This document shows, one piece after another, positions 8,203 to 53,388 of a DNA stretch of 64,000 nucleotides. The position numbers and the translations under genes are program-made. Positions within the stretch are counted from its first letter, which is position 1. Each line of letters begins with the position of its first letter. Location of the stretch: contig CM060851.1 in NCBI GenBank assembly GCA_030737835.1, forward strand, positions 9,853,611 through 9,917,610, in the 5' to 3' direction. The notes below the pieces were generated by a model that worked only from the letters and a program-made list of their open reading frames with translations, had not been told where the DNA came from and searched no databases. The DNA comes from Acorus gramineus (Eukaryota > Streptophyta > Magnoliopsida > Acorales > Acoraceae).

Positions 8203-10111
8203 CTTTAAACTGCAAAATTTTGCAAAAATAAAAGTAGATGTCATGTGTTTGAAGGAAAACCATGTTAAGAATAAAATACTACATTTCCAAATTTCATAAT
8301 AGTAAAAGTAGATGAACAAAAGGAGAGAGAATAGGCCCACAACAATAGCAGTGCCAATGTTATCGATTTATTGAATCGTGGAAGCTAGTCCCTTTTCATC
8401 AAAAAAAAAATAAAAGTGCCAGGTCAACCAAAAACAAAATCCAAACTAGACATGTAAAGGAAATAATAGTCCATAAAACCTCAAATAAAGATAGCCAACT
8501 CAATAATCAAGAATTCTACTCCTATACCATATACCCATATCAGAGGCATGTCTCATGCAACAAAAAAACTGTTCTCTCCATCCTTCATCAGCTCCAAGTT
8601 AATTAGTAAAATCATCCAGGTACACAATTCTGATGCTCCGTAATGTGAGGACCACTAGCACCACCTCTCATGCCCATATTACATAGCAGACCATCATGAA
8701 GACAAATATCACCAATTATGACATTACTTACAATAATCAATATCCACACAAATAAACCTTCCTCCATCTGAACAAGCTTATCACCATTGTAGCCTTTTTT
8801 TTGTTTTTGCTTTCGTTCAAAGATCAAATGCAATATACAAAAAAGAAAAACTAAGAAAACACAAAAAAACAATTCAATACAATCTGTGGTGACAAAAGCC
8901 ATACATGAAAGAAAGACAGCAAAACCCAACAAATGATTGTGTGGAGCATTTGTTACAACTGCATAATTTTGTGTGTGTGTGTGTGTGTGTTTATGAAAGT
9001 GAGGAAATTTGGTTGAATCAGGTTCATTTCATGTGTATGTCAGGCTTGGACCATAGCTGTAGAACCAAATCAACCCGATTATGATCTCTCTTTTTTTCCT
9101 TTTGTGCATCCGATGAAAAGGTAGGAGCGTCATTTATGATATGAAAACATGAATACTCACAACTCAGCCGTCCCCAAGAAGCAAACCAATCATGTGAACC
9201 AACTCCTGTGCCCGCTTAGAAGCCTTTATGGCTTCCCAAATATTCTCAAAGTACATGTCATTTTATTTTGACCAAATGAAAGTAGAAAATGTCATTATTC
9301 TATTTTTATTATTTAGGGTCACATGAATCAGTTTGTAAAGTATCATGGGGTTAAGAGCTTGAAAGATTAGGTTTTAGAATTTATTTGCCATGCATAAGTG
9401 CAAGTAGGGACTTAATATTAAATAAAAATTTAGCAGGGTTTTTTCTCTAAATTTGCTCTTTATAACTTTCACAAGACAGTTCGTACTAGGACTTGCCCAC
9501 GCGATTTCACACCCTTTGAAACACAGTTAACCCTTCCCTGTGTTTCAAATATCAATCAGTAGTCTTTGATATATCGATTTTTTTGAATAAATCGCAAAAA
9601 TCAAAGTACATATCAAGAATTAAAAAACAAACTCAATTTCTCACAATATATTACCCACACAGCACGATAAATTCAAAAATAAAAAATAAAACCAGCTAAC
9701 GGGCTAACATGTCATTGGGATCAGCCCAAATTCAATACTTTAGGATTTTAATTTTTTCAAAAAAGATTCCCCAACTTCTTTTAAAATTATGATCCCTAAT
9801 TTTCCTATTTCCACCATAACATCTCAAACACTCATCTTCATCAATAAAAATGTATATATTTTCTCCATTTTCCAGTTTTTATACATATCCTAATTATTTT
9901 TCTATTTTCTCCATTTTTCAAAAAAAAAAAAATCAAACAATCAATATATAGATCAATTTGCGGGTCTTTCGATATAACTTTTTGATATTAGAACCTTGAC
10001 CCTTCCTCCTCACCCAAACCCTAAACCCCCATACCCAATAGTCACAAGCCAACATCAAATCAATTGGATGAGGGTCGTAGCCAGGCCCCAAAGATGGTCG
10101 GCCAGGATGGA

Positions 10112-10148
10112 TGTTGCCAAAAGGCAGGCTTGCTGCCTTTTGGCAACA
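10112..10148. repeat. Perfect 16-bp stem hairpin in RS2Z leader intron
   Basis: TGTTGCCAAAAGGCAG (10,112-10,127) and its exact reverse complement (10,133-10,148) flank a five-base loop. The inverted duplicate has the same 16-bp stems at 19,503-19,518 and 19,524-19,539. A further partial copy (CTGCCTTTTGGATAAG) lies just downstream. Confidence 0.9.
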
Positions 10149-10871
10149 GCTCCACTGCCTTTTGGATAAGGGTTCTTCCCTGTCCCAACCACCCGAGGCC
10201 TCCCCTCTGGCTCCCACTTCCCCATCGGACAATCCCCACCACCATCCTCTCCGCCATGGCCCTCCACAGCTGGAAAATCACCCGACCGTTGACATCCTAG
10301 GCCTCCAAAACTCATGGCATACCTCAGAAGATTCAAAAACATGCAAGAAAACCCTAACCCAAAACTGTCTTACACTGAGATTTCAAATAACAAATTTACG
10401 AACAACCACTGGTCATTTTTGTTTACGACCATGTCACTAAAAACTGATATGCATGGCAAACGGACCTCAAAATCTAATCACTTAAGCTCTGAATCCCACG
10501 AAACAAATATCTGCACAAAAATATGAAATATTTTATCCTCATTTGGTCAAAAATAAAAAATTCAAATCAGACCCATTTTGTTCCACAGTTAAATGAACCC
10601 CATTTAACAAAACTCCTCATTTATATATTTTATTCACACACACACACACACACACAAAAATTCATGTAGTTGTTGCAACAATAAATACCGGAATGGATGA
10701 AGCTAACTGGACAACAAGATTACCATAAAAATTCAATTTTCACTGTAGATTTCAATTTAAGCATTAATGAATTATCTAACTCATCTGATAAATATATAAT
10801 AAAAATTTCCCCACATCCCCCAAAATTTAATTCACCATCCCCTGCCATCTAAAAATTACAATTATTCTCAT

Positions 10872-11060
10872 GGGGCTCGGACCAGTAGCCCAGTGGTTGA
10901 CAAGAGAATTTGCAGCCCCGAGGTCATGGGTCCAGGTCCCAGCGTTTACCTAACAAGAAAATTATAAAAGGATGAACCCAATGAATAAATTTTAACCTGA
11001 ACTTCTTCCACAAAAACTTACACTGGCTTTGGGTACCTCTTCAAAACCTTCTCCCATATC
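10872..11060 (+). mobile_element. tRNA-derived SINE in RS2Z leader intron
   Basis: A pol III A-box-like stretch (TAGCCCAGTGGTTGACAAGAG) is followed about 25 bases later by a B-box-like stretch (GGGTCCAGGTCCCAG), the layout of tRNA-derived plant SINEs. The same unit sits in the inverted duplicate near 18,700-18,790 on the opposite strand, so it inserted before the duplication. The 3' end and target-site duplications are not clear; the end given is approximate. Confidence 0.55.
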
Positions 11061-11403
11061 TTATTCATAACAATATATGTATAAACAGATCCACTTAAAA
11101 TCAAAGAATCACTCACCAAGAAAAGATAAACTTTTTGTTCTTCGGAGATTCATGGTTCTCCACGCATCATTAAAGGTGAATTAAACTTAAAACAAAAGAA
11201 AACACGCAAAACTCCAATACCCAGTCGCGAATCATTTCAAGAACCAACGATGGAAACCCTAGAAACAGAAGATCTGACCGAAATAGAACAAAAAAAAACG
11301 AACATGTGATACGGATCGAAGAGCACGTACCTGCAGATCTCGGCGATGAAGATCGCAAACCCTAATTTTCTGCTCTAAGGAGTCGTGCCGTCCGTGCCCG
11401 TGT

Positions 11404-11413
11404 GTTTATATAG
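11404..11413 (-). promoter_or_regulatory. TATA box of the RS2Z gene
   Basis: The minus strand reads CTATATAAAC about 70-80 bases upstream of the leader-exon donor. The position suits initiation near 11,378. This promoter side was not carried into the inverted duplicate. Confidence 0.6.
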
Positions 11414-11419
11414 CGATAT

Positions 11420-13735
11420 GAATCGATTATTTTGGACGGCTGAAACGAGTTGTTTTGATTTTAACGGTTGAGATTTAGGGACGTGTCATTAATTGGGGTT
11501 TTGGATCCTGTCTTCGTGTTTGAGGTCACCTTCGGTGAAGATAAGAGATGTGATCCGCTTTGTCCTTTAACATACCGTGCCGTTTGTACGATGGAACAGG
11601 GGGGCAAGAGGAGAGAAGTAAATTATACAAAGCAATGCACTTTATACATCATTCTATACCATATATGAATAAAATAATCATAATGATATAAATATACATT
11701 TAAATATTTAAATGTGGTTTTAAAAATATGTATTCAAAGTAAATGATCCAGTTTGTTAATTTTTAACTTAAAGAAATAATTATAATTAAAAAATAATCAT
11801 ATGTAGTGGAAAGTTTGAAATGAAAAGTATTTGTATCATCTCATTACTCTAGAACAATATTTATTTAAATAAAACAATCACTTAAAATGTGAATTAAAAT
11901 CATATATTTATATAAATTTATTTATTTAAATTAAGGATTTTGTTGAATTTAATAAGATAGAATACATGAATATCTAACATTATCCAATGTCTTAACACTA
12001 AATTTTGAATAGAATAAGATGTGATATTTTCTAGTTTAAAAATAGTTAAAAAATATGTATTTTTTTCATTTTTGCCCCTAGTTTAAAACCAAAATTAAAT
12101 AAAGATTTTCATTCATTGTATAAAAAATTAAGTATAAAATCGGAAATGAAATGTTACAAAAAAAATAAAGTTGAAAATGAAAACTCTTTGTGGTTAATAT
12201 ACTAGATAGATAGAGGGAGAATAAGCATAAAAAACTGTTTAGGTTGAAGGAATAGACAGGTAAAGCTATGCCAGAATAGGTGAGAGCAAACTGATATTTA
12301 TATTATAGTTCCTCTGTAATTGTGTTATTCTACTCAATTTATTACACTCGTATAAAATATTCATATGTCAAATCAATTGTCATCACCTTTAATAAATCAG
12401 AGTACTCACAAGTCAAATAATATTTTTACCTTAACATGAAGTTATTCTGTATTTTACATTTGGATCTACATTGTTTGAATCTACATACATGAAGAACTGC
12501 ATCCCATAAACAGGAGATAAGATGCATATCCAAATTCAACTTTACATGAAGATTCTTCAACCAAAAAAACTACCAACAAAAAAAAAATTGCAACCCTTCT
12601 TTAACATTATTTAAGCATTATATTAAAAGAGAATGTATCTTGGGTTTGGGTTTGAGATGCAGAAGCCGAAAATGTGTTGTATATGGATTTGAGAAGTTTA
12701 TGTTTTTAAAGTCTAACTGATAGGCAATAACACAACTTAGAATTTCACATATAACAAGATGCGTCTCGTTGTTTATATATTACATATTTGTTAAAACTTA
12801 CAAGCTACAGATTATAGCTTTTGGCTTAAAATAAAATTTGATTGTGTTTTTCATTAAATAGAGATTAAGTTCTATATTTTTGTCTTTCAAATTTTTTTTT
12901 TTAATTAATGTGGAATCCAAGATTTTATTAATTTTTTTACATATTATTTAGTTTTAATGAGTAAAACAATATTCTTTTATCAAAGAGAAATTAAATTTAA
13001 CTTTTACTTTTAGAAGGAGTATCTTTGACAATTACAGAATAAAAAACTATTTTACAATTTATTCTAACAAACATTCACAATTGCTTATTCTTTATTTTTC
13101 AACAGCTACAACAAACATGTTAACTGTTTTTCAGAAAGTTATAATATATAATCTATAAGTCATAATATATAATCTGTAAATTTAAACTACAATAAACATG
13201 GCCATAATTCTTTGAATGGCATGCGCTTGGTCTTTACATATTTATGTAATTTTAAATAGGAAATGAATTGAAATTGGCTATGAAATGGATCATCTTGTAA
13301 GTAAACAAATATTTGAAAACAATTATTAATGCAACCAAGATAGAAAAATAAAAATATGGGGGGATACATTTCTACATTTGTAGCATATTCTAGATGAACA
13401 ATCAATGTGATTAGAGCATTTGGGTCAATTCAGCAATCTTTACTTGAACAAGATCTAGAGGCTCATTGGAGTGCAAATTTCTTTGGCAATTAAAATTCAA
13501 AAGGATGTTGCTATATAACTACTTCCATTGATAACCAAAGATTTTACTTATTCAAAGAGAATACTCCAATATCTGAGAGTGAGGACCAAAAGGAGTTTGT
13601 ACACAATTAGCAAAATTAGACAGACCAACTTGTGACATCAAAGCATGTGTATAAAGAGGTTGCATAATAGGCCGCTGTTTTGTTGTCAATTGGTGAAAGC
13701 CAGAAAAAGATGTGGTGGTCATTAAGTATGTTTTA
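11420..13735. other. AT-rich spacer upstream of RS2Z
   Basis: Very AT-rich sequence with homopolymer tracts and only short chance reading frames. I see no gene, RNA or delimited element. Confidence 0.5.
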
Positions 13736-13739
13736 AGTT

Positions 13740-14600
13740 TCCTGAGGGTTTCTCCTAGATTTTCAAGATTTTAAAAGGAATCATAGGCACAACTGATGGT
13801 TTCATAAAGGCTATCGGATGGAAGGTGGGCAACAAGAGCTCCGCATTCTTTTTGGCATGATATATGTGTGGTTTGGTGATAGCTCACTAAAGGAGTGGTT
13901 CCCCTCCATCTTCGACCTTTCTATGGACAAATATAGACTCATGCACAATTTTTGAGCTCAGCACAAGTGCTCAATGGGACTTGCGAATGATAAGAAATTT
14001 ACGTGATGAGGAAGTGGAGTTGTTCACTACCCCATTGTTGGAGCCACATGAGAAGTCATTGGCTAAAGAGGCTACAGATAGGGTACTCTAATAAGGATAT
14101 GCTATGACTGGTGGATGAGAGACTGACCGCTGTTCGAGGCCACAACCAAAAAATACCACGAGATTTGGGGTACAAGGGCCTTTAAAGGTCAAAGCATCCA
14201 TGTGGCTCTTGTACCAAGACCGAATCATAACTAAAGCATATAGTGCAAAATGGAATATTCTAGACAGGGACCCTCCTTGTTAGATGTGTGGAGGTAGCGA
14301 GGAAACAACATAACACATTGTGATTAGTTATACCAATGCTAGACAGGTGTAGAGTTTTGATGAAGGGGGCGACTGACTTGGATGATAACTTCTCCTCCAT
14401 GGAGGTGATGTGGGAGGCCAGAAAGAAGATGAAGTTGAGAGGCGATAGGAGCGCAAAGGCGAAGATCTTGCAACTATATATACTGGCGGTAACATGGGCT
14501 CTTTGGATTGTGTGAAATCACCTAGTATTTCATGGGACTAGGGTCAATGTGAAAAAATGTATTGGAAAAGGTAGTCCACCCAGTCAAGGATTGGACCGGG
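13740..14600 (+). mobile_element. L1-type LINE relic (3' part of ORF2)
   Basis: Translated in changing frames, this stretch follows the usual order of plant LINE ORF2 C-termini. Near 13,815-13,910 is a segment reading IGWKVGNKSSAFFWHDIW. At 13,976-14,050 is WDLRMIRNLRDEEVELF, and at 14,185-14,330 is a zf-RVT-like segment (VKASMWLLYQDRI, then MCGGSEET). Near 14,490 is a WALWIV segment. Several frame changes and stops are present, so it is dead. The reverse transcriptase core and the 5' end are missing. The tail to 15,090 is unassigned. Confidence 0.75.
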
Positions 14601-15175
14601 GCTAAGAATGTGTTGTACAGTAGGGAAACTTCATCATTGAGGAGTGGGTCATGTCATGAGGTCTTCCAAGAACAGTACATGTCCAAGGATGAATGACTAA
14701 TCCAACATTTCAAGCAAAGCAACAGACTAGGTCGCTCAATGACAGTACATGTCCAAGGACAAAATCTAGCTTATTATCTCGGAAGGCTGTCCATGTTTAA
14801 GGACCGGTTTCTAGTCACGTCCTCCGAGGTGAGAAAATATCCGAGAAGTCGAGACTGACCATCCGATCCAACTACCTACGAATTGAACAAGCCAGTATGC
14901 CAAGCACAGCGGAGGCATCTAAAAGGCCCTAACTTATCCAAAATAATTGTCAGCATGTACAACCAAGTCAAACAGAATCAAGAGGGGCTTTGCATGGCCT
15001 ACTCCAAAGATGATACATGGAAGATTCCTTCAAGAGGGGCTTTTCATAAAAAAGCGCCATTAAAATTGAGATATTTCTTCATGATGTAGTTTAAAATTTT
15101 ACAATTAATCTTAGGACCTCCGTTACACATGTACATCTCATAAGCTAAAATGAACAAAATACCATTTAGTAAGCC
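14601..15175. other. Unassigned sequence after the LINE relic
   Basis: Less AT-rich than the surrounding spacer. It may be the decayed LINE tail or another element. The phrase CAGTACATGTCCAAGGA occurs twice (about 14,673 and 14,743). No protein or RNA gene recognised. Confidence 0.35.
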
Positions 15176-15190
15176 AATTCTAGTAAGTAG

Positions 15191-15460
15191 TCCCAACAGC
15201 TTTAGCTGTATGGTAAGTAGTCCCGACGACTTTAGTTGTGTAGTAAGGGACACCCTTTTTTCAGGGGTTTGCCCGGTTTCGACTGCTGATGGCAAGGAGA
15301 AACCAAAAAATGGTTTAAGCCTAGTGGCTTGGTTATTGTGGGCATGACCCACAAAGCTTGTTTTGGGCATATCAACCTGTATTAATAGTAAGTCTCTTGT
15401 TGATCATTGTATGTTCGGACTGTCTCACCCTGTCTGGGATTGTGTACGAAAAAAAAAAAA
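15191..15460 (+). mobile_element. SINE-like retroposon with 15-bp target-site duplication
   Basis: A 270-bp insert ends in a run of A (about 15,448-15,460) and is bracketed by identical 15-bp direct repeats AATTCTAGTAAGTAG at 15,176-15,190 and 15,461-15,475. That combination is the mark of L1-driven retroposition. A weak A box (TTAGTTGTGTAGTAAGGG) and B-box-like GGTTTCGACTGC suggest a tRNA-derived SINE. It has no open frame of its own. The exact target duplication points to a fairly young insertion. Confidence 0.75.
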
Positions 15461-15475
15461 AATTCTAGTAAGTAG

Positions 15476-17140
15476 ACAGCAAATGTGAGAGATGAAGCCT
15501 TGTGAAGCACAAATATTTATCTATGCAAAGATAATCTCCTATATGCCTTTGATGTCTTTCTAACTACTACTAGGATTTATATATTATTTTTTTGTGATTT
15601 CATTCTAACATTTTACATTTGCATCCAAAATAAAAACGACATAATTCATAAAAACTCATCTGAAAATCCATCTTCAATAATAATGAAATTTTTTTTTGGG
15701 GGGAATTGGACAATGTTATCAAAGATAATTAATGTTTCTTTTTTTATATATATGTTTGCTCTGTATCATTTTTTTTAATGTTTTAAAAAACCAGTCTGAA
15801 TTTAGGTTTGGTTTAATCTCAAAACTCAATAGCCTAAAAATTGGTAAAAACAAGTCAATTCACCGATCTAATATACGATTTTTAAGAACCTATCACGAGT
15901 TAATTAAACCGGTCAGTTCTTAAATTATATAAAATCACTGTCAAAAGTAAAATATTATTAAAAAAAATTTTAGGACTTGTAGTCTTACACTTTCATTCCA
16001 CCTTTATGTAACTGAAAAAGAGAAAATGTGGCTCAATTGGGATAGATCATGATTTTAAGAGAAAAAATAGCCTCAATATTTTTTATTATTTTAATTTATA
16101 TATCATACAAAAAACATGCTAAATCATGATTACGTTGTAGTGATTCAGTTCCGATTAATCCAACGAACAAACCATTAACCTTTAGCCAATTAATTTTTTT
16201 CATTTCAATAAGCTATTCGAATATAAACATTGTCATTTTTCTGGGTACCCAATATTTTGTTATTAATATACCAATAGGCTCTCTTAGGGCGGATCTATGA
16301 CAATATTTTACGGTGGGCTACATGAAATATATAGAAGTTTTTTTTCAGCATCAATTCTAATCCCATATATGTCGATAAAAAACCACAAGAGTATATATTT
16401 ACATTAACAACGTATGTGCTTCTATAAAAATTTTTTATGTTTTTTACAAATGCATCTATGCAATTCATTGAAATATATAATTCATTTTTTTATAAAAAAT
16501 TTACTACAGTAGATGTGGTATACTATTTTAAAAAAATAAAAAATTCACATAGACTGTACGTGATTTTATCTTAATATATATAATCAAATATAAAAAATAC
16601 AAAATTTAATCAACCTTTAAGTCCACCATTAGGCCCTCTTACTAAAAAAAAGAGCATTGATATACTAGTCTTTCTACAGTCCTATCTACAGATACAGTAT
16701 ATACTTTATTATCATAATATATAGGATATACGTAATTTTATTTTATTTTTAAAAATAAAATAAAATATATATTGAGATATGAAAGTGTTTGATTTAAAAC
16801 AAAAAAAATTAGCGTGAACTGTTAGTGTCACTGAGCATATCATTTTTTAAAATATAAATTATTGTGTTATTGCCCAAGAGAACACCCATTAGGCTACTAC
16901 TGTTATTGATAATAATATATATTGTTCTTATTTCTAGAACCGGTATTAATTCGTCGAACGGAGCGGGGTATCTTCTCTTCCACCAGCTCCTTTTTATTTT
17001 ATTTTTACATTTTTGACCTCACAAACGCGTCTAAAAACTCCGAACACGTTTGCTTTTTCATGATTCGGATCCGGGTACCGTAAACGGATCATCACCACCT
17101 TCAACACCCCCAACATATCATTTTATTTTTCATGATTTTA
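15476..17140. other. AT-rich spacer
   Basis: No reading frame, RNA gene or delimited element seen; long A/T tracts throughout. Confidence 0.5.
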
Positions 17141-17199
17141 TTGTGTGTTGGAGGGTTGTTTTTGTGTATGATTGAATATACATATTAGACATTCATGAT

Positions 17200-17720
17200 A
17201 TCTCTCACAGGTTAGATACTCATAATAGCTTGAACGCAATAGAAAATCTAAAACCCGTAGGCTCTGTAATGGAGTTAGACAAGACTGATATCGATAGAAT
17301 CATATATCTTAAACATTTAGTCCGTTAAATGAAATAAGAGAAAAATATGTATGTTCTAGAATGCGTTAAACACCTGAGGTATTTACGTATCGGTAATCCC
17401 TAGACACTACCTCAGTCGATGAGAACAGAAGTGAAACCCGTATGTTTTGAAATGGGGTTTGCTAAGATTGATGTCGATGAAATCATATGTCGTAGACACT
17501 TAGTCTTTCAAATAAAATAGGAGAAAAATTTGTATGTTCTGTAATGGGTTAGACACCTAAGGTGTCTAGGTATTTATAATACTTAGACACTATTGCAGTT
17601 TATGAGAATAAAAGTGAAATCCGTAGGTTCTGGAATGGTTTAGACATCTGAGATATTTAAGTATTTGTTATTTCTAGACACTGCTGCAGTCTATGGTTTG
17701 AATGAAAGGGGTGTGCAGTG
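17200..17720 (+). repeat. Degenerate ~95-bp dyad repeat array (related to 28.9-30.4 kb)
   Basis: About five decayed units share the phrases GGTTCTGGAATGGGTTAGACA, GACACCTAAGGTGTCTAGG and TAGACACTAC...TATGAGAACAGAA. The same phrases build the array inside the Mutator-like element at 28.9-30.4 kb, so both derive from one family. Terminal inverted repeats are not found here, so the host element may be truncated. Confidence 0.65.
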
Positions 17721-17737
17721 GAGAGTCAATTGTTAAA

Positions 17738-17840
17738 TAAATATTGGGGTGTGTACAGAACCCAAGTTATTTATGTGGGGTATGGTTAGATATGGGGTGT
17801 GCGCAGTAAATACAGGGGTGCAAATAGCCGGACCCAACAC
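17738..17840 (+). repeat. Copy of a repeat segment also present at 51.2 kb
   Basis: From TATTGGGGTGTGTACAGAACC to GGTGCAAATAGCCGG this resembles 51,215-51,310 (TATTGGGGTGTTTAAAGAACC to GGTGCAATTAGACCGG) at most positions. Both copies lie next to dyad-repeat arrays. Class not identified. Confidence 0.5.
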
Positions 17841-17937
17841 CCCTTCAACGAAGTGTTTCCCTATTAATCGGGTCGGGTCAACAACCGACCGATTGCGGAT
17901 CCTTGATGAGCAAGGCAAGGTGTCCGCTTCATTCATT

Positions 17938-18307
17938 CCACGTGGCATCGAAAGAACGCGTTATGAAAACGCGGACATCCCAATTAATAAATACTACACA
18001 ATGTTTCTATATATATCCATTCATAACGTGTTCTGATTTCCCGTTCTCTCTCAATCTGGTTATATATTTTTTTTTTTGGATCTTTTGAAAGTATCATCGC
18101 TTCCAAGGTGAGCATCTTTTTATGTCATTTTGGTTTTCCGATTGTTCTGGAGGTGAAGTTTGTGTTGATTGATTCATTGATGGTTGATGTTCTGTTGTTT
18201 GTATCATTTTAGTGAGGATGGGTTTTTAAAATTATGAATTGGTTTGGGATTGTTTGGATTTGGGCGTATTTCGATTTAATTAGTTGTAAAGATCAGATCT
18301 TTAATAT
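17938..18307 (+). promoter_or_regulatory. Distal duplicate of the GRP promoter, leader exon and donor
   Basis: This 370-bp block recurs at 20,651-21,048. It holds a G-box core in CCACGTGGC (17,938-17,946), a TATA tract (18,008-18,016), and a leader exon ending CTTCCAAG|GTGAGC at 18,107. The downstream glycine-rich protein gene could initiate here as well as at the proximal copy. It is one half of the direct duplication that brackets inverted-repeat arm B. Activity is inferred, not seen. Confidence 0.75.
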
Positions 18308-18311
18308 CTGC

Positions 18312-20643
18312 CGCCGAAATCTCCAGGTACGTCACGTACGTGCTCTTCGATCCGTATCACATGTTCGTTTTTTTTGTTCTATTTCGGTCAGATCTTCTGT
18401 TTCCATCGTTGGTTCTTGAAATGATACGCGACTGGGTTTTGGAGTTCTGCGTGTTTTCTTTTGTTTTAAGTTTAATTCACCTTTAATGATGCGTGAAGAA
18501 CCATGAATCTCCGAAGAACAAAAAGTTTATCTTTTCTTGGTGAGTGATTCTTCGATTTTAAGTGGATCTGTTTATACATATATTGTTATGAATAAGATAT
18601 GGGAGAAGGTTTTGAAGAGGTACCCAAAGCCAGTGTAAGTTTTTGTGGAAGAAGTTCAGGTTAAAATTTATTCATTGGGTTCATCCTTTTATAATTTTCT
18701 TGTTAGGTAAACGCTGGGACCTGGACCCATGACCTCAGGGTTGCAAATTCTCTTGTCAACCACTGGGCTACTGGTCCGAGCCCCATGAGAATAATTGTAA
18801 TTTTTAGATGGCAAGGGATGGTGAATTAAATTTTGGGGGATGTGGGGAAATTTTTATTATATATTTATCAGATGAGTTAGATAATTCATTAATGCTAAAT
18901 TTGAAATCTACAGTGAAAATTGAATTTTTATGGTAATCTTGTTGTCCAGTTAGCTTCATCCATTCCGGTATTCATTGTTGCAACAACTACATGAATTTTT
19001 GTGTGTGTGTGTGATGAATAAAATGTATAAATGAGGAGTTTTGTTAAATGGGGTTCATTTAACTGTGGAACAAAATGGGTCTGATTTGAATTTTTTGTTT
19101 TTGACCAAATGAGGATAAAATATTTCATATTTTTGTGCAGATATTTGTTTCGTGGGATTCAGAGCTTAAGTGATTAGATTTTGAGGTCCGTTTGCCATGC
19201 ATATCAGTTTTTAGTGACATGGTCGTAAACAAAAATGACCAGTGGTTGTTCGTAAATTTGTTATTTGAAATCTCAGTGTAAGACAGTTTTGGGTTAGGGT
19301 TTTCTTGCATGTTTTTGAATCTTCTGAGGTATGCCATGAGTTTTGGAGGCCTAGGATGTCAACGGTCGGGTGATTTTCCAGCTGTGGAGGGCCATGGCGG
19401 TGAGATTGGTGGTGGGGATTGTCCGATGGGGAAGTGGGAGCCAGAGGGGAGGCCTCAGGTGGTTGGGACAGGGAAGAACCCTTATCCAAAAGGCAGTGGA
19501 GCTGTTGCCAAAAGGCAGCAAGGCTGCCTTTTGGCAACATCCATCCTGGCCGACCATCTTTGGGGCCTGGCTACGGCCCTCATCCAATTGATTTGATGTT
19601 GGCTTGTGACTATTGGGTATGGGGGTTTAGGGTTTGGGTCAGGAGGAAGGGTCAAGGTTCTACTATCGAAAAGTTATATCGAAAGACCTCCAAATCGATC
19701 TATATATTGATTGTTTGAATTTTTTTTTTTTTGAAAAATGGAGAAAATAGAAAAATAATTAGGAATATGTATACAAACTGGAAAATATATACATTTTTAT
19801 CAATGAAGATGAATGTTTGAGGAGTTATGGTGGAAATAGGAAAATTATGGATCATAATTTCAAAAGAAGTTGGGGAATGTTTTTTGAAAAAATTAAAATC
19901 CTAAAGTATTGAATTTGGGCTGATCCCAATGGCATGTTAGCCCGTTAGCTGGTTTTATTTTTTATTTTTGAATTTATCGTGCTATGTCGGCAATATATTG
20001 TGAGAAATTGAGTTTATTTTTTAATTCTTGATATGTTCTTTGATTTTTGTGATTTATTCAAAAAAATCAATATCAAAGACTGCTTATTGATATTTGAAAA
20101 ACCGGGAAGGGTTGACTGTGTTTCAAAGGTTGTGAAATCGTGTGGGCAAGTCCTAGCACATATTGTCTTGTGAAATTATAAAGGGCAAATTTAGAGAAAA
20201 AACTCTGCTAAATTTTTGTTTAATGTTAAGTCTCTACTTGCACTTATGCATTGCAAATAAATTTTAAAACCTAATCTTTCAAGCTCTTAACCCCATGATA
20301 CTTTACAAACTGATTCATGGGACCCTAAATAATAAAAATAGAATAATGACATTTTCTACTTTCATTTGGTCAAAATAAAATGACATGTACTTTGAGAATA
20401 TTTGGGAAGCCAGAAAGGCTTCTAAGCGGGCACGGGAGTTGGTTCTGTTTAAGTCACACATGATTGGTTTGCTTCTAGGGGACGGCTGAGTTGTTAGTTC
20501 TCCACTGTTTTGTATTCATGTTTTTTCTATGTTTCAGTCTTTTTGTTTGTGCACGTCTTTGTTCCTGGGGTTGCATATCTTAAATGATGCTCCTACCTTT
20601 TCATTGCATGCACAAAAGAAAAAAATAGAGAGATCATAATCGG
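18312..20643. repeat. Large inverted repeat, arm B (RS2Z leader copy inside the GRP 5' region)
   Basis: This is a reverse-complement copy of 9,075-11,346, about 2.33 kb. Its plus strand equals the RS2Z sense strand, so it lies in the same transcriptional direction as the downstream gene. It begins inside the RS2Z leader exon and keeps a version of its donor (CCAG|GTACGT, with the GTACGT part doubled). It also carries the SINE (18,700-18,790) and the 16-bp hairpin (19,503-19,539). Near 20,480-20,570 it has about 70-90 bases without a match in arm A. Short filler (3 and 7 bases) separates it from the flanking direct duplication. Confidence 0.93.
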
Positions 20644-20650
20644 ACTACTT

Positions 20651-21048
20651 CCATGTGGCATCGAAAGAACGCGTTATGAAAACGCGTCATCGAAAGAACG
20701 CGTTATGAAAATACGGATATCCCAATTAATAAATACTACACAATCTTTCTATATATATCCATCTATAACGTGCTCTGATTTCTCGTTCTCTCTCAATCTG
20801 GTTATATATTATTTTTTTGGATCTTTTGAAAGTATCATTGCTTCCAAGGTGAGCATCTTTTTATGTCATTTTGATTTTCTGATTGTTCTAGAGGTGAAGA
20901 TTGTGTTGATTGATTCATTGATGGTTGATGTTCTGTTGTTTGTATCATTTTAGGGATGATGGGTTTTTAAAATTATGAATTTGTTTGGGATTGATTGGAT
21001 TCTGGCGTATTTCGATTTAATTAGTTGTAAAGATCAGATCTTTAATAT
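20651..21048 (+). promoter_or_regulatory. Proximal copy of the GRP promoter, leader exon and donor
   Basis: Second copy of the block at 17,938-18,307. It holds a TATA tract (20,750-20,758) and a leader exon ending CTTCCAAG|GTGAGC at 20,848. The likely acceptor is ATGATGCAG at 22,512, 22 bases before the ATG, giving a 1.66-kb leader intron. Here the G-box reads CCATGTGG. A 28-base phrase (CATCGAAAGAACGCGTTATG and following bases) is repeated in tandem, which makes this copy slightly longer. Confidence 0.75.
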
Positions 21049-22534
21049 TGGATTGTTTTGGTGAATTGCGATATATAAACATTACATTATGTTATTTCGG
21101 ATATTATTTTGGATACATCATACATGTACATGATCAACCTTTATAATCATAATTTATTTTGGGGGGATCTCTGTGGGTGTGTGCTTTGAGAAGAGTGACT
21201 ATGTCCCTTTTTTTTTGTAATTTTTTTTTATGAATTTGGTTATGCTGGTTGAATTTGGGCTTAGGATTAATGGGTTTTGTAAAAACCAAATTTTATGTTG
21301 GGTTTTGGTGGTTCCACTTGTTTTCTTTTCCCTTTTTGATCGTGGTTTTCTTTTTCTATTTTTCTTTTTGTGTTTTGATGAGAATGATTGAAAGCATGTT
21401 TGTTTTATGTTGTTTCATCACTTAAAAAGGTTTTGTTGATGTGATTATTGTAGATTGAATTTTGATATCTGATTTATAAACATTATACTCATCATTATAG
21501 ATGCATATGTCTGATCAAACTTTATAACCATGTATTAATTGGGGATTCAATGGGTGTGCTTTGAGAAGTGGCTGTGTCTCCTTTTTTGGCATTTATTGGT
21601 TTCTGTTTTGATTTAATTTGATTATGTTGGATTGGATTTGGGCTTATTGGATATATTGTTTTGTAAAGATGGTTTCATTGTTTTCTTTCCCTTTTAAATG
21701 ATGGGTTTGTTTTTATGGGGGAGTTTTGATTACAATGATTGAAAGCATGTTTAATTTTGATTGTTTCATCTCTCAAATGACTAGGATTCATGTGTGTGTC
21801 ACCACCGAAGTTTTGCATATAATTTCCTGCTTTTAGGATCAGGTTCAGCTGGCTTCGTTGCCAGTAAGGTATTTCATCGTAGTATTTTCAGTGGTGCAGC
21901 GAGATGCTATCTTATTTTTATAAGCACTTTAAACCAAAACTGGAGATATATATTGTAGAATGGTACCATGATACCAGAAGACTGTTGAAAGGTGTTTCAT
22001 GCAAACTGTCCTAAGTGTGTTGCAGTACGGTATTTCTTTTTATGAAGCTAAGTTTGGCGTGCAGTTTAACATATAGATGCAAATTAAAATATTTGATAAA
22101 CGTGTATTGTACAAAATGCTTCATTGATGCATTTTGATGTAAGAGATGTCAGATGTCCAACTTTCAGATTCAACTGATTATCATTTCTAGTGTGAACTTT
22201 AGTATCTCTGTTCAATGTTTCTTGTGTTTCATTTATGGTTTTGTGACTGTTCTTCTGTTCAACATTTAGAATTTCAGACATGACAAGTAGAGATTTAAGT
22301 TATACTAGTTATAGTAAAAGAAATCTTTTCGACTTAAAAATTTGTAGACTGTTCTGAGGCAGTCCTTGCATCTCTTCATAACCAGAATAGCAGGGGTTTA
22401 ATATCTTGTTTGATATCAACTTCTATGAAAGAAAAGAAAAAAAACAATGTTTTTATCATACAATGCAATGTGAGAAAAGGTAGTGAAGTATCTTTTGTTT
22501 CATATGATGCAGTATCTCTTCTCGATAGCGAAAA

Positions 22535-23406
22535 ATGGGAGGTGGGAAGGACAAGCATGACCAGGAGTCAAGTGACAAGGGTTTCCTCTCGAATCTTGCC
22601 CATGGAATGTCTGGATATCCACCAGGCCAGGGCCAGCACTCCGGAGGTGGAGGATACCCTCCGCAAGGGTACCCACAACAAGGGTATCCTCCACAAGGTT
22701 ATCCACCACAACCCGGGGCTTATCCTCCGCAAGGTTATCCTCCACAAGGCTATCCTCCGCAGGGCTATCCCCAGCAAGGGTACCCCCCACAAGGGTACCC
22801 TCCGTCAGGGCATGCTCCATCCGGCTCTCATGGTATGTTTTGGCCTAATCGTGTGATTGAATCTCTCTCTTTTTTTATTTTTTACAAAGGCCCTTAAAGG
22901 TCAACACGGTCCCAAACATGTAGCTGCAGCTCGCTACTAGTACGAGAGAGTTGGGCCAACATTGGCCCAGGACAGATCGTTAACCAAAGCCCACTATAAC
23001 CAACCCCTCGATCAGGTTCCCATACCTGGGGGACCCTTAGGGGCAGTGTCCCTTCACCGCTCGGCCTTAGGCCGTTGGGGCGCATGTGGTTGTTCTTGAA
23101 TGCAAAAAACTTATTTGTTTTGCAGGGCATGGTGGCATGGGCACAATGCTAGCTGGTGGTGCGGCTGCCGCCGCTGCAGCTTATGGGATGCACCAGCTCG
23201 GTGGTCATGGGTCTCATGGGTCACATGGGTCTCATATGGGACATGGGTCTCTCATGGGACATGCGCCTCACATGGGACAGGGGGCTTTTTACGGTCATGG
23301 TGGCGGGAAGCACCACGGCAAGTTCAAGCACCATGGAAAGTTCAAACATGGGAAGTTTGGAAAGCACGGAAAGCACGGGGGAAAGTTCATGAAGAAGTGG
23401 AAGTGA
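22535..23406 (+). CDS. Glycine-rich protein A3-like, YPPQG and HGKF repeat protein
   Basis: Two coding exons, 22,535-22,832 and 23,126-23,406, join in phase to give 192 residues. The start is the first ATG after a leader acceptor at 22,512. Residues 1-25 are polar (MGGGKDKHDQESSDKGFL). Residues 27-92 hold about ten Y-P-P-Q-G units. Residues 104-122 form an Ala/Gly-rich hydrophobic stretch. After that come HGS/HMG repeats and a basic C-terminus of H-G-K-F units ending KFMKKWK. This architecture matches the plant glycine-rich protein A3 (XYPPX-repeat) family. Its molecular role is poorly known; membrane or wall association is often suggested. There is no signal peptide. Its single coding intron holds a SINE, and its upstream region is the rearranged one described separately. 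Confidence 0.93.
22863..23095 (-). mobile_element. tRNA-derived SINE in the GRP coding intron
   Basis: On the minus strand a tRNA-Ser/Leu-like A box (GGCCGAGCGGTGAAGGGA, near 23,060) is followed by GATCGAGGGG-type B-box-like sequence and ends in an A-rich tail at 22,865-22,880. Short direct repeats TTGAAT flank it (22,857-22,862 and 23,096-23,101). It makes up most of the 293-bp intron. The B box is weak, so the class is probable rather than certain. Confidence 0.55.
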
Positions 23407-25819: not shown

Positions 25820-28224
25820 TGAATAACGCAGCGTGAAATGAATAAAAAGATATAAAAAGCGTTGAGATCTTATAAGCTTCTTGAATCTACAAGAAAAATA
25901 ACAAAAGAAAATATAATTTTATTGATTGATCAAAAGTTATCCCTTACAAAGATGGTGGCACTCATTATAGGCTACAAACATTAAATACACATTCATAATG
26001 TGAATTATGACTCTACTAAAAATAGTAAAGACACAATTACAATCACAATTATTAAAATCTAATAAAATAAAATATAAGATCCTAAAAATCTTAAATTTCT
26101 AATTCACCAATAAAAGGTGATTAATATGACTTTAAATAATGAGATTTGTCTATAAATGATAAAATCTCATAAAAAATTATTTTGTGGACTGATTTGAAAT
26201 CAAATATTCTACAATGATTTTTTTCCACATCTGTTCTACATCAGTCTCCTATTCTTAAAAAAACTAGTTCTTGAGTTTAAGATGAAAGAATTTTAATAGA
26301 TTTGGAGGATAATATTTGATATAATCAAATATATCAATAAGAGATATAAAGATCATTTTCCTCTCCTTATTTGATGCATTCTTGTATTTGACCTTTGACA
26401 AGAGAAGAGACATTTTCTTGAATTCAAATTCCTTTTTAATCAAATCGATCATAGAAAAATTTGAATGCATCTCGATTTATAGCCCAAACTTCTTCACCAT
26501 TGTAGTTGTCACAATGTCCCCATCATTACCTTTGTCGACGATGACATCAAAAACGCTTTTGTTGATGTTGCATGCAGTTTGCAACACGAACGTTTGTAGG
26601 AGCTTTTCTATCTTTGGTGTCACCACTAAGGAATAAGAAAATGGTTTCTCTTGTTCTCCTCCAATAATCTCTTTAGATTCAACGGAGAGAACAACATCAT
26701 CCACTTCTTTATTTGTCATGTCCTCATCAATTTTTTATTCAACCAGAGGTTGATCATGGGGGTGGTCAGTTATCAGATTCTCTTGATTTTTTGGTGGACT
26801 TTCTTCGGTCTCTTCTCCATCGATCCATCAACCATATCTTGACTTAATGCAACATCTAGATTCTAGCGGGTTGATCATGGAAGAGCCTTTGGACATCACG
26901 TTTGATCTCTCCAGTTGTGATTCCACTTTTATGGCCACAAAAATTGTTTCTGTCAAGCTGCAAATCTTTTGTGAAGCAATATTATCTCGAATTAAAGACC
27001 TCAACCCATTAAGATAATGTGCCCCTTGTCGCCACTTAGCTTCTGTAAGGTCATACCGACCCAAAATTTTTAAAAATTCAGCAGTATAGTAGAATACGGA
27101 ACGATTACCTTGGCGACAATTTTGGTACAAGTAGAGCAAATATTGTTCATAATCTAGATGAAGGAACCGAACCATGAGAAGTTGTCTCATCCTGGTCCAT
27201 GTTGGAATATGTGCTCTTCCTTGTCGCTGTCCGGTCCTTTGAAGGTAGTCCCACCAATTAACGGCACCACTCGTGAGTTGAAGTGCCACCAATCTTACCA
27301 TCTCCTCTTCACGCACCTCCATTATCTCAAAGAATTTATCAATCTCTAAGATCTAATCAAGGTACTGATTAATTGGTAAATTAATGTTGAAATAAGAGAT
27401 GACCATTTTTTAAAAAATAATTGTTGTAGTATGTGTGCTGCCTTCTCAGCTTATAGTCGTACAGTTCACCGTCTTCATCATCCGAGTCATCCTCATAATC
27501 GGGTAGATAATGAGAATGTCGTCAAACAACGTTATAAGCAATTGGTTGGCCTCAGGCAAATCCCTTGACGCGCATCCTGTCACTCCCAGGTCGTCTATTG
27601 TCGACGTTGAGATTCATTCCAGTATTTCACATCATGAAGAGCTTGCCGCGTTTGCTGACAAAAGTCCTCCCGAAGGTGCTTTTGGTCCTTCTGCAACGGT
27701 CGAAACAGCTCCTACACCCCACAATCACCGTCAATGGGATTATTGTTCCCCGCCCGGCTATGTGCCACCGAAGCTAGGTGAATCCTTGCTTTGATATCAC
27801 CCAACGCAGCTTGAAATGGATAAAAAGATCCAACAAGTGTTGAGATCTCATAAGCTCTTTGAATCCACAATAAATCCTTGAATCCACAAGGAAAATAACA
27901 AAAGAAAATATAATTTTATTGATTGATTAAAAGTTATCTCTTACGAATATGATGGCACTCATTATTTAGGCCACATACATAATGTAAATTATGACTCTAC
28001 TAAAAATAGGAAAGACACAATTACAATAACAATTATTAAAATCTAATAAAATAAAACATAAGATCCTAAAAACCCTAAATTTTTAATTTACCAATAAAAT
28101 GTGATTAATATGATTTTAAATAATGAGATTTGTCCATAAATGATAAAATCTCATAAAAAATTATTTTGTGGACAGATTTGAAATCAAATATTTTGTAATA
28201 ATTTCTTTTCAAATCTGTCATACA
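25820..28224 (-). mobile_element. Ty3/gypsy LTR retrotransposon fossil, internally deleted
   Basis: Two similar LTRs of about 420-430 bp lie at about 25,820-26,240 and 27,795-28,224. On the minus strand the upstream LTR is followed by a Met-type primer-binding sequence (TGATATCAAAGC). A gag-like frame at 26,828-27,322 contains WWDYLQRTGQRQG and MRQLLMVRF, typical of the retrotransposon gag domain. A protease-like stretch at 26,477-26,719 contains VFDVIVDKGN. No reverse transcriptase or integrase remains. The element is broken, with a large internal loss and a handful of other breaks. The LTRs differ by several percent, suggesting a few million years. Confidence 0.8.
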
Positions 28225-28337
28225 CCAATGAAAAGAGTAAAAGCATCAATCTATTCTCTATGAGTCATTCACTTGTGATTTGTCATAGGCCAAATCTTTT
28301 TTTTATATTTGTGTGTGTGTATGTGATTTTAGGATTC

Positions 28338-28783: not shown

Positions 28784-31700
28784 GGGGAGAGATATTGCCA
28801 CCACCTAAACTACTTTAGGTACCACCTCCTCAACTAACCAGAGGTATTGAAACACTTCTAAGGTATAATGATTAAGAGCACCACCTTCTATCTGCCACCC
28901 TTTCTCTCTTCCCGCGTTAGAGACATGTATTGTCTATGTATTTATATAACCTAGACAATCAAGATGTCTAGGTTAACAGTATGAAAAACGTAGGTTCTGG
29001 TTTGGATTAGACACATCGAGTGTCTACGTCGTTAAGGATTCTAGACAATAAGCTTGTCTAGGTGAACAAAAAATCAATCAAAAGGTTCTGGAATGGGTTA
29101 GACACACAGGTGTGGAAACATAGGAGCCACAAAGATTGGAGAGCAAGATTTTCATTTTCCTCGGGAGGTATCGGGAAGGAGTTGGAATTGAATAATATTG
29201 AAAAAAACTCGTAATGAACCTAGCCGTGCCCGGTGCTTCCAAGAAGTGACGGGTGTAGGATTGGGATGGGGAAGACCTAAATCTGCGGCAGAAGCTTTAG
29301 ACTGGTTTTCACACCTTCGGTCACCTTCTTCTTCACTTTTGGCTTTGACATTTTTTTCTAACTGTCCTGGACTTGAAGTGTTGGATCTTCGAATGCTACT
29401 TTGATGTACTTTTAGAAATGGGGAGAAACGAGGGTAAGAGCTTTTGAGTGAGGTAGTCTTTGATGAGAAAGTTAGCAAGCCCCAGGGGAAAAATAGAGAT
29501 GTCTCCTACGCTCGCACCTTCGTTCGGTTGGTCGCCTCGCTTTCTAATTGGAAACAATAGGCAACTACCCTATTGACTCAAAACGATCATTTTGCTATCG
29601 CTTTCAATGGTTGTAATCATAACTCCCTGGGAGCAAGTAGAAATCTAATGCATCGCTACACTCTATCTAAGTTTATAAATTTACTAGACAATACTTTTGT
29701 ATATGGAAACAAAAAAATCAATCAAGGTTCTGGAATAGGTTAGACATATGCAGAGTCTAAGTTTTTAAATTCCCCAGACAATAATTTTGTCTATGAAAAC
29801 GGAAAAATCAATTCATACGTTATGGAATAGGTTAGACACATGCACTGTCTAAGTTTTTAAAAACTCTAAACATTATTTGTGTCTATGGAAACAGAAAAAT
29901 AACAAATAGCTAGGTTCTGGAATGAGTTAGACATATACAGTGTCTATATTTTTAAGTATTTTAGACAATACTTCTGTCTATGAAAATAGAAAATATAATC
30001 CATATGTTCTGGAATGGGTTAGACACATAAAATATCTAAGTTTTTAAATATTATAGACAATACTTCTGTCTATGGAAACAGAAAAGTCAACCCATAGGTT
30101 CTGGGATGGGTTAGACATATGTAGTGTTTAAGTTTTTAAATTTTCTAGACATTATTGTTGTCTATGAAAACAGAAAAATCAACCCATAGGTTCTGGGATG
30201 GGTTAGACATATCCAGTGTCTAAGTTTTTAAATTTCCTAGACAATACGCATGTCGATGGGAACAGAAAAGTCCTCCATTTGGTTCTGGAATGGGTTAGAC
30301 ACATGGGATGTCTATGTATTTATATATCATAGACCACCTTTATGTCGATGGGAACAGAAAAAACAAACTGGGGGTTCTGTAATGAGTTATAGTAATGTGT
30401 TTGACTTCATCAATCAGGTTTCCTCATGAAACATGAGAAAACAAAATCACAACTTCAACAATAGTTGAATTATTCACAGGTCTTTTGACATGATTCCTTG
30501 ATAAACATGGGTAAACCTTCAAAGTCATACTTGCATTCAAAGCCATCAATACCACCATTCAAATAAACATCCACACTGTTTAAAGTAAGTTATTGAATTT
30601 GAGCAAGTGATCCTACAAAAACCATATAATACACAACTGATCGAACCATTGTTGTTACTTAAATAAACATTCATTTCAACAAATCGATGAAAAAACAAAA
30701 TGATAGTCAATGAGAAGCTCATTATTTTCGGGACCACGATGAAAAGGACCCTTCATACTACCTTCATCAATATCTGAATCTCTTCTACCTCTACTTCTTC
30801 CCTCTCATCTTCCTCTTGTGGTTCGACCTCAACATTTTGAGAATTTGATGCCACTCTTTGAGTGTATGGGATGATTGACGTTGAAGGGACATCTTTAGTC
30901 AATCTTTTAGATTGGCGTCTCTTGTGGTTTGAAGTAGTTTGTGGATCGAATGTGTGGCTTCGGAGGCATCCTGCGAACTATTGGTTCCAATAATATATAA
31001 AATATAAAAATAATAGACAGAAAGCCTATAATCTATCAAATATCTAACTCATTGACACCCCCACAATATTGACTCTTCCCTAGGTCCCCCCCCCCCCCCC
31101 GGAATTCATGAGAAAAACTTGTTAAAGAATTAGACTACAAGATAGAGACAGCCATGCACATTCTAATGGATTCATCATCAAAAAAGTAAAATAAACCAAT
31201 CCTCACTATGGATATTTGGAACACTAACAATCCAATTCTAGGTTATTAATATAATTATAGCAAATGACCATCCACATAGTAGATCAACCTGACAATCTAA
31301 TAGAAGAAGACTCATCCCAACTTGTGCATTAACACAAGAATTCCCTTTGAAATCATATTATCATTTCAATCAACCATTTAAAGAATACACGAATCACATC
31401 AACCCACAGTAACAATTAACAAATAATACAAAAAAACATCACAAAAGATAATTCATGCGCGCATCCATTAACACAAACAAAGGACAGATTGATGAGTAAC
31501 AGCATTATATAATCATATTACCCATGCCACAAATCCCTCTAAATAACTAACAAATCCGATCTAAACATGTTCAATGATGATAAAATATAGGGTTTAAACT
31601 AAACAAATGCAATCACAATCATATCTTTAAATCCAAAAATAAAAAATAAATTGATCTTAAATCATATATTTTCCCAAAAATACCCCAACATACTATCAAA

Positions 31701-32313: not shown

Positions 32314-33089
32314 GAACTGTAAATAGGAGAACCCAAATGAAGATAGATGACAAAGAAATGTTTCACAACAAAATCTCTACATAGAGATAGATTGTTATTG
32401 TTTCGAGTTTTGTTGATGTTAGAATAAAGGAAATGAAATTCTTGTTATTGTATTAGAGGAGCCAAATGCTCTATTTATAGATACATAAAAGAAACCTTAA
32501 AATACCAGAAAAAGAATATAGGAAAACTAGGAAACTAATAATATAATAATAATGATAATAAAGACATAATATTATTCTAATAATGACTCTTTAACACCCC
32601 CTCCCAAACTCTGAAAGGTAGAACCCTTAGAGTTTGCACAAAAATGAGAAGGTGGCGGAGGCTGGCGACAGCGACGGGCGGTAGGGTGAGGCACGGCACG
32701 ACGCGACAGAGGTGCCACATGGCGCAGTAGAGGAACGTGCAGAGGCACCAGTAGAGGCACGTGCAGGCGCGGTAGGGGTGCAACAGAGGCACGGTAGGGG
32801 CATTGCAAGCGGCAGGGGCGCTGCAGAGGCGTGGCATGGGTGCTGCACGGTGCGAGAGGAGCAAGGACAAGAACGTGGAAGGCGCACATAAAGGAAGACG
32901 CGTGCGGCGGCCGCAATGCTGAGAAAAGAGAAAGAGCGCACATAGAAGAAGACACGTGCAGAAGCAGCAAGAGGAGTCGCGAGATCGCACAAAGAGCGCG
33001 AGAGCGGTTGATGTCGCAAGGAGATGCGCGGAGGTGTGCAAATCTTTAGATAGGAAATAAAGTCCAATTTAGTGTTCTGAAATCCCGAG

Positions 33090-34560
33090 GTGGCCACCAG
33101 GGCCATAGGAGGGCGGCCGGATGCATTGGCAGTCTGTGGAGAGCGGCTGAGTGCAGCGGACAGCGCCGGAGGGTGGCTGGAGATGGTCGAGAGTAGCCAG
33201 AGGATCACCGAGGGCGGCAAAGGGCCGCCGGAGAGAGGCCGGAGGCGGTCGAGGGCTATATGAGGTGGTAGAGGGCAGCTGATGGTGGTGACAGGCAGCC
33301 AGAGAATTGTCAGAGGGCCGCCGGAAGATTGCCGGAGGTGGCGGAGGGCGGCCGGAGGATCACCGGGAGGCGGCGTTTGGAGTCGATGGCCAGCGGCGGA
33401 GGACTGCCAGAGGGAGGTGGACATTGGTGCCGGCAGAGGAGAGCGGCAGCCGCTGGTGGTGCACGTTGGCGGGTGGTGGCGTGCGCTGGGTGGCTCGAAC
33501 GCACATGGGGAGCGCTGGGGAGGCGTCTCGGATAGGATCCCGGGAGATCCGGGGCAAGATCCCAGGAGATCCGGGGCACTGTCCCGGGAACACTGGCACG
33601 CGCTGGCAGGGCTGGCACCGCTGGCAGGCGCTGGCACTCTCGGGCACGCACTGGCAGAACAGATCCCGGGGGATCTGAGAGCGCTGGCACGCGCTGGCAT
33701 GGAAGATCCCGGGAGATCCCGAAGCGCTTGCACGGGCTGGCAGGGCAGATCCCAGGATATCCGGGAACGCTGGCACGCACTGGCATGGCAGATCCCGGGA
33801 GATCCGGGAACGCTGGCACTAGGGGTGGTAAACGAGCCGAACGAGCTGAGCTTTGACATGTTCAAGCTCGACTCGTTTATAAACGAGCCGAGCCGAGCCG
33901 AGCTCACGAGCCTCAACGAGCCTAGCGTTCTTCTTCTTTTTAGGGTTTTTAAGGGTCGAAAATAAAATTTTAACCTAAATGAGTCAAGTTCATGAGCCTA
34001 AATGAGCATAGCTTTGTATTAATTTAATGTTCTGATCTTATATAAGAGTTTAGTCAAGTTTCAACTAAGTTTTTTATAACACAACGAGTTGAATTTGAAC
34101 ACAAAATGAAGTTCGATCCAGGTCCCGAGCCTAACCGAGCTTTAAAAATTGTTCAAGCTCGCTCATTTGTTTAATCGAACGAGCCTGAACAAGCTTAAAC
34201 CGACCCGAGCCCGAGCCGAGCCCAACTGGCTTGGTTCGTTTACTAGCTCTAGCTGGCACGCGCTGACAGGACAGATCCCGGGAGATCTGGGAGTGTTGGC
34301 AATTGAGAGATCCGAGAACGCTGGCACGCGCTGGCAGGAGAACCAGGAGAGCTGGGACGCCCTGGCAGGGCACGTCGACAGGGCTGGCAGGCAGCGATGC
34401 GCAAGGGCTGGCAGGGAGCGACGGCAAGGCGAGCAGGGCGCAATGGCACTGCTGATAGGGCACGTCGGCAGGGCGAGGCAGGGCGTGTTGGCCGTGCTGG
34501 CAGAGCTGGCAGAGCACAGCAGGGCTGGCAGGTCCGTCAGCAAGGCACGACGGCAAGGCT
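33090..34560. repeat. GC-rich tandem-like repeats inside the LTR element
   Basis: From 33,090 to 33,420 variants of GGAGGGCGGCCGGAGG recur. From 33,530 to 33,815 and 34,252 to 34,560 variants of GGCACGCGCTGGCAGGGCAG and ATCCCGGGAGATCCGGG recur. The hAT insertion interrupts the second set. GC content is far above that of the rest of the window. Long frames on both strands here are by-products of this composition. Confidence 0.85.
33820..34251. mobile_element. hAT-type MITE nested in the LTR element
   Basis: A 432-bp insert starts TAGGGGTGGTAAACGAGCC and ends in the inverted counterpart (reverse complement TAGAGCTAGTAAACGAACC, 15 of 19 matching). It is bracketed by an exact 8-bp duplication GCTGGCAC (33,812-33,819 and 34,252-34,259), as expected for hAT elements. 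The interior is rich in palindromic ACGAGCCGAGC phrases and has no transposase. It is younger than its host LTR element. Confidence 0.88.
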
Positions 34561-34895
34561 GGCAGGGTGGAAGCATAGAACAATGAAAAGAAAAATTTTG
34601 GGTACCAAAAGTCCTCCCCCGCTCTGATTGAACACTCCTTAATCGGAGCGGGGAAGAAGAAAAAAAAAAACTTTTGTGGATCTAGGGTTTTTGGGGTGGC
34701 TCTGATACCATGTTAGAATAAAGGAAAGAGAATTCTTGTTATTGTATTGGAGGAGCCAAAGGCTCTATTTATAGATACATAGAGGAAACCTTAAAATACC
34801 AGAAAAGGAATATAGAAAAACTAGAAAACTAATAATATAATAATAATGATAATAAAGACATAATATTATTCTAATAATGACTCTTTAACAGTTGA

Positions 34896-41482: not shown

Positions 41483-41551
41483 TCTTGTGCGAGGCAAATA
41501 AATATTAGGTTAAACACAAATTCTTATAATAATCACATTAAGAATATAAAT

Positions 41552-41602
<51 letters not shown>

Positions 41603-45266: not shown

Positions 45267-45335
<69 letters not shown>

Positions 45336-53312: not shown

Positions 53313-53388
53313 AGGATTTTTTTAAAAAACCTCTCCAAAACTCCATTCACAAAACCCTACCCAAAACCCTAATTTTCCCGGAAAACAA

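Follow-up and report, generated by a model that had tools for sequence, protein, structure and literature searches.

The RS2Z and XYPPX genes

We analysed a 64,000-nucleotide stretch of Acorus gramineus DNA (assembly GCA_030737835.1, contig CM060851.1, positions 9,853,611 to 9,917,610 of the forward strand), hereafter the window, in which a piece of one gene's leader intron recurs inverted in the 5' region of the neighbouring gene. Judged from its genes, this DNA appears to be nuclear. The first of the two genes lies on the minus strand and encodes a splicing factor which we take from its sequence to be of the RS2Z family. Its spliced part encodes 177 amino acids with an RRM and two zinc knuckles, and its coding ATG begins at 8,202. 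A TATA-like stretch, noticed by eye, is found upstream of its leader exon at approximately 11,404-11,413. The second gene, on the plus strand, encodes an XYPPX-repeat protein and was called GRP in a first-pass annotation made from the sequence alone. The two genes are transcribed divergently.

Table 1. Features of the RS2Z-XYPPX locus, in window coordinates.
Feature	Coordinates	Strand	Remarks
RS2Z leader (5' untranslated region) intron	8,210-11,330	-	predicted from sequence; acceptor GCAG/TTTAAAGATG, donor GCAG/GTACGT
RS2Z leader exon	11,331-11,400	-	predicted from sequence; 5' end approximate
Donor arm	9,075-11,345	-	end of RS2Z leader exon and 5' part of intron
Spacer between arms	11,346-18,311		6,966 bp; RS2Z promoter, intergenic DNA, distal XYPPX promoter/leader
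Direct repeat, distal copy	17,936-18,307	+	372 bp; predicted promoter, TATA-like stretch, leader exon ending at 18,107, donor
Filler	18,308-18,311		4 nt
Inverted RS2Z copy	18,312-20,643	+	15 nt of exon, donor, shortened intron; RS2Z sense shares the XYPPX strand
Low-divergence arm part	18,312-19,630	+	candidate conversion tract; one-changepoint fit
Filler	20,644-20,648		5 nt
Direct repeat, proximal copy	20,649-21,048	+	400 bp; predicted promoter, TATA-like stretch, leader exon ending at 20,848, donor
XYPPX leader intron	20,849-22,512	+	predicted; 18,108-22,512 when starting at the distal leader
XYPPX common acceptor exon and coding region	22,513-23,406	+	one intron; ATG 22,535; stop 23,404-23,406

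An inverted RS2Z copy between direct repeats

The borders of the arms and repeats were set by self-BLAST, a repeat search and gapped alignment of the window. What was copied from RS2Z comprises 15 nt of the leader exon and the initial 2.26 kb of the leader intron, whereas the copy has neither the promoter of RS2Z nor the acceptor of the intron. Over 2,244 aligned sites the two arms differ by 73 substitutions (96.7% identity) and 13 indels. Self-BLAST and gapped alignment thus bear out the inverted RS2Z leader piece that the first-pass annotation had reported at 18,312-20,643, and the exact arm borders and identity, which it had left to a self-comparison, are now those given here and in Table 1. 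Its claim that the leader exon had been copied holds for 15 nt only, and the RS2Z leader donor is here placed between 11,331 and 11,330. Since the exon-intron border and the intron are retained, the copy was made at the DNA level.

Direct repeats border the inverted copy on both sides, separated from it only by the two fillers. This agrees with the initial description of a 370-400 bp block with promoter, leader exon and donor on either side, and of short filler at the junctions. The BLAST E-values were 0 and 1e-158, so the arm and repeat matches are not due to chance. The direct repeats differ from each other by 20 substitutions in 361 aligned sites (Kimura two-parameter distance 0.058). A G-box, CACGTG, is intact in the distal repeat at 17,939 and reads CATGTG in the proximal repeat at 20,652. 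Both junctions carry short duplications: where the proximal repeat meets its junction, 29 bp are duplicated in tandem (20,659-20,716), and the copied RS2Z donor, close to the other junction, carries an insertion of 9 bp, in part a repeat of the donor. Such duplications are as error-prone synthesis leaves them.

Several smaller features were seen in and around the duplicated sequences. At 20,497-20,573, the RS2Z copy includes two stretches, 15 and 49 bp long, for which the RS2Z intron has no counterpart; either the donor lost them once the copy had been made, or the copy acquired them. Words resembling the A and B boxes of transfer RNA (tRNA) genes were noticed by eye in the copied intron, at 10,860-10,960 and 18,700-18,800, and are perhaps the remnant of a short interspersed element. 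When the window was scanned with Rfam, at gathering scores, and for tRNA genes, there were zero hits in either case. Immediately upstream of the distal promoter lies a tandem array of 183-bp units (17,251-17,646), which is approximately 73% related to a 92-bp array 12 kb away (29,666-30,366). Within the XYPPX leader intron, at 21,131-21,777, an old tandem repeat is 68% alike with a spacing of approximately 351-381 bp, a length that resembles that of the 372-bp duplication.

Splice signals of the two XYPPX leaders

Both XYPPX leader exons end in the identical donor AAG/GTGAGC, at 18,107 and 20,848. At the sequence level, these donors and the acceptor before 22,513 are those that had been proposed at first. 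ATG is absent from the stretches checked as putative leaders (18,030-18,107, 20,771-20,848, 11,332-11,400 and 22,513-22,534). From these signals, we predict that either XYPPX leader can splice to 22,513, giving the same protein. Splicing of 18,107 to 22,513 would remove the entire RS2Z copy and leave a mature leader that is almost alike from either promoter. The earlier suggestion that distal transcripts carry RS2Z-sense leader sequence is therefore right for the pre-mRNA and would not apply to the mature leader if this splice is used.

Divergence is uneven along the arms

The divergence between the two arms is bimodal. A one-changepoint fit places the break near 19,631 and separates an inner, promoter-side part with 22 substitutions in 1,310 sites from an outer part with 51 in 934. 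None of 2,000 permutations reached this fit, and none of 1,000 reached a two-changepoint fit (inner part 18,341-19,661) with 21/1,320 inner and 52/923 outer substitutions; the permutations assume independent substitutions, which is true only roughly. By either fit, the inner arm is less diverged than the direct repeats (p=1.7e-4 for 22/1,310 and p=1.2e-4 for 21/1,320), and the outer arm equals them in divergence (Fisher p=1.0 for both 51/934 and 52/923 against 20/361). The arm indels tilt the same way, depending on the cut, with 3 of 13 (p=0.011) or 4 of 13 (p=0.051) in the inner part. GC content also differs between the two arm parts (0.40 and 0.32).

Because the inner part is less diverged while the outer part matches the direct repeats, a later exchange between the arms is likely. 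The pattern suggests that the promoter-side 1.3 kb was homogenised by gene conversion after the copying event, at approximately 0.28 of that event's age (95% interval 0.16-0.45). With plant substitution rates of 7e-9 to 1.3e-8, copying would have taken place about 2-4 million years ago. Passages of PMC6215864 describe recombination in Arabidopsis as peaking near transcription starts and declining along the gene, with maize genes mixed. The direction of the arm gradient agrees with the Arabidopsis pattern, which is no proof of conversion.

The low inner divergence is unlikely to stem from purifying selection acting on donor-proximal signals of the intron. Such selection concerns the later history of the arms and is compatible with an origin by break repair. 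The gradient does run toward the 5' end of the leader intron, close to which the expression-enhancing signals of such introns lie. Such constraint would, however, have to extend across 1.3 kb in each of the two copies and take in a CA/TG microsatellite as well as a GC-rich block. The intron-mediated enhancement motif TTNGATYTG occurs zero times in the arm, zero times in the RS2Z intron and once in the proximal XYPPX intron (0.4-0.7 expected), which does not support a role for it, and the count in the arm, where 0.4 is expected, is too small to decide anything on constraint.

Origin of the arrangement

We consider it probable that the RS2Z piece was copied into a break in the XYPPX promoter by repair or template switching and that the arms later underwent conversion, with either leader still able to splice to 22,513. 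The XYPPX promoter/leader region would first have suffered either a break in the germline whose nicks lay far apart or the stalling of a fork. Through synthesis-dependent strand annealing or microhomology-mediated template switching, 2.3 kb from the leader exon and intron of the adjacent RS2Z gene would then have been copied in, inverted, and repair would have left the 372-bp target on each side together with the short fillers. Subsequently, gene conversion would have homogenised the arms over 1.3 kb on the promoter side. The XYPPX gene would end with two promoter/leader-exon units, and the RS2Z piece would be spliced out as intron.

The donor and recipient genes are neighbours, 7 kb apart. 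As in repair-templated insertions, the source is still present, the target is directly duplicated around the insert and filler lies at the junctions. The equal divergence of the direct repeats and the outer arm fits a single event. Break repair or template switching had already been proposed in the first-pass annotation; the DNA-level copying, the target duplication and the filler uphold it, but a two-step inversion would arrive at this order too, and divergence varies along the arms.

A number of observations weigh against repair copying followed by conversion. The junction microhomologies, a 6-mer on the left and a 5-mer on the right, occur in 22% and 83% of same-size random stretches, and at this chance level they give no evidence. 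Human repair duplications span only 4-21 nt and were seen in 6 of 39 proximal cases in the data given in PMC2671141, and the induced overhangs described in PMC8355091 measure 43-49 bp, versus a target duplication of 372 bp here. Over the whole arm, divergence (73/2,243) is below that of the direct repeats (20/361, p=0.045), and the two agree only once the inner part is separated. The longest identical run in the arms, 303 bases, exceeds the 99th percentile of 5,000 permutations (247), yet stays below their maximum (322). Constraint could, instead of conversion, have caused the low inner divergence. Finally, a path of two steps would yield an identical final order.

In this two-step path, which seems rather unlikely to us, a staggered-break inversion first duplicates 2.3 kb of RS2Z and 372 bp of XYPPX, so that inverted copies stand at both ends. 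Recombination between the 2.3-kb arms then flips the spacer back, and the 372-bp copies become direct. By reasoning, the observed A-b-M-c-b'-c-D results when the part of A-b-c'-M'-b'-c-D bounded by b and b' is flipped. The divergence profile likewise suggests arm exchange, and part of PMC7584159 explains a directly oriented staggered-break duplication in Drosophila via a later microinversion. However, this path requires two events and a 2.3-kb stagger, whereas one event accounts for the order, and the inverted allele is not known. A staggered-break inversion without the later flip predicts 372-bp copies that are inverted at opposite ends of the spacer, which were not seen. The one-step path is preferred because it is more economical, and for nothing else.

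The same final order would also result if the promoter/leader block had first been duplicated in tandem and the RS2Z piece had inserted independently between the copies, and a 408-bp promoter duplication is mentioned for grape in PMC7464560. This is very improbable, as only 4-5 nt separate the insert from either repeat border, where two independent events would have to coincide, and as the direct repeats and the outer arm are equally diverged. Still less probable is an assembly artefact from haplotypes or a misjoin: the direct repeats are approximately 5.5% diverged with differences spread along their length, short duplications stand at the junctions, and the arms are inverted and not in allelic order.

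A mobile element, whether a small long terminal repeat (LTR) element with 372-bp LTRs or a terminal inverted repeat (TIR) transposon or Helitron that captured RS2Z, can hardly be credited, even though direct repeats that enclose a captured gene piece seem LTR-like at first glance. The repeats begin and end TTCCAC..TTTAATAT and not TG..CA, and their flanks, ATTCA and TGGAT, form no 5-bp target site duplication (TSD). The insert ends match at 18 of 55 positions at best (ungapped), under the mean of 21 for 500 random pairs, which rejects a TIR transposon. Helitrons have 5' TC and 3' CTRR ends, and the possible 3' end here, CTAC by eye, does not fit. The initial opinion that this is not a normal transposon thus stands after negative tests of LTR, TIR ends and TSD. 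A retrocopy is likewise rejected: the intron is retained, no poly(A) was seen at 20,643, and the duplication is 372 bp long.

The test of ends and TSDs is able to detect LTR elements, since 5-bp TSDs and CA ends are present at two further repeat pairs of the window. The first, at 32,417-34,890, has direct repeats of approximately 180 bp that are 94% identical, with TG..CA in both and GTTGA on both flanks. Its interior is GC-rich, a tRNA-Met-like primer site lies beside the right repeat, and it is a short LTR element, probably on the minus strand. The second, at 41,483-46,013, is an LTR-type element with direct repeats of approximately 810 bp (93% identical), TTAAG flanks and CA ends; the repeat starts with TG at right and TC at left, and each repeat contains a long AT run.

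A possible promoter swap

Each arm sits next to the donor, inside the leader intron of one of the two divergent genes. Were the arms to cross over, the 7-kb spacer would be inverted, RS2Z would acquire the distal XYPPX promoter and leader exon, and the XYPPX gene those of RS2Z. Because both leaders are noncoding and hold no ATG in the checked stretches, such a swap would leave splicing and both proteins intact. That the locus works as an invertible promoter swap of this kind is doubtful; the present order may be a flipped-back state. With the terms used, our literature searches on promoter swaps through inverted repeats found no such paper, which does not prove that none exists, and a search on the RS2Z leader intron found nothing relevant. 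At this one locus, break repair would have supplied a predicted second promoter and leader exon and planted an inverted repeat across neighbouring genes. If the spacer flips, these neighbours could trade promoters with neither protein damaged.

Comparison with known systems

The mechanism of templated repair is already known; the bimodal divergence of the inverted arms is new here. The size is also unusual, as are the target, namely two leader introns, and the hint of a later exchange. Patch-mediated or filler-DNA repair in plants is reportedly the subject of Wicker 2010, Vaughn and Bennetzen 2014 and Schiml 2016. The locus differs from such repair in that its filler is a neighbour's leader intron, inserted inverted, which results in matching arms in two genes. 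A second-hand description in PMC3445842 has plant break repair adding duplications of the break site or filler from elsewhere, and tandem duplications that arise from paired nicks are known from PMC8355091.

In vertebrates, templated repair insertions are described by Pace et al. 2009 (PMC2671141). In the cases set out there, as here, linked DNA is copied into a break with filler, microhomology and sometimes target duplication, and the copied pieces include exons, untranslated regions and splice sites. Those insertions measure at most 619 bp with donors less than 5 kb away, whereas 2.3 kb was copied from 7 kb away here. Drosophila O7, as presented in PMC7584159, likewise combines inverted duplications with direct orientation following a flip, and the spacer between its inverted repeats segregates in both orientations. 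In contrast to O7, one orientation is seen here, in a single sequence, and the arms belong to the leader introns of two plant genes that are transcribed divergently.

Other features of the window

Two further features were seen downstream of the locus. Direct repeats of 83% identity at 25,825-28,227 enclose a Retrotrans_gag open reading frame on the minus strand (26,831-27,352), and clear TG..CA ends were not seen on them. A partial RNase P p30 subunit gene lies at 53,326-53,985 (Pfam score 35.4 versus a cut-off of 35).

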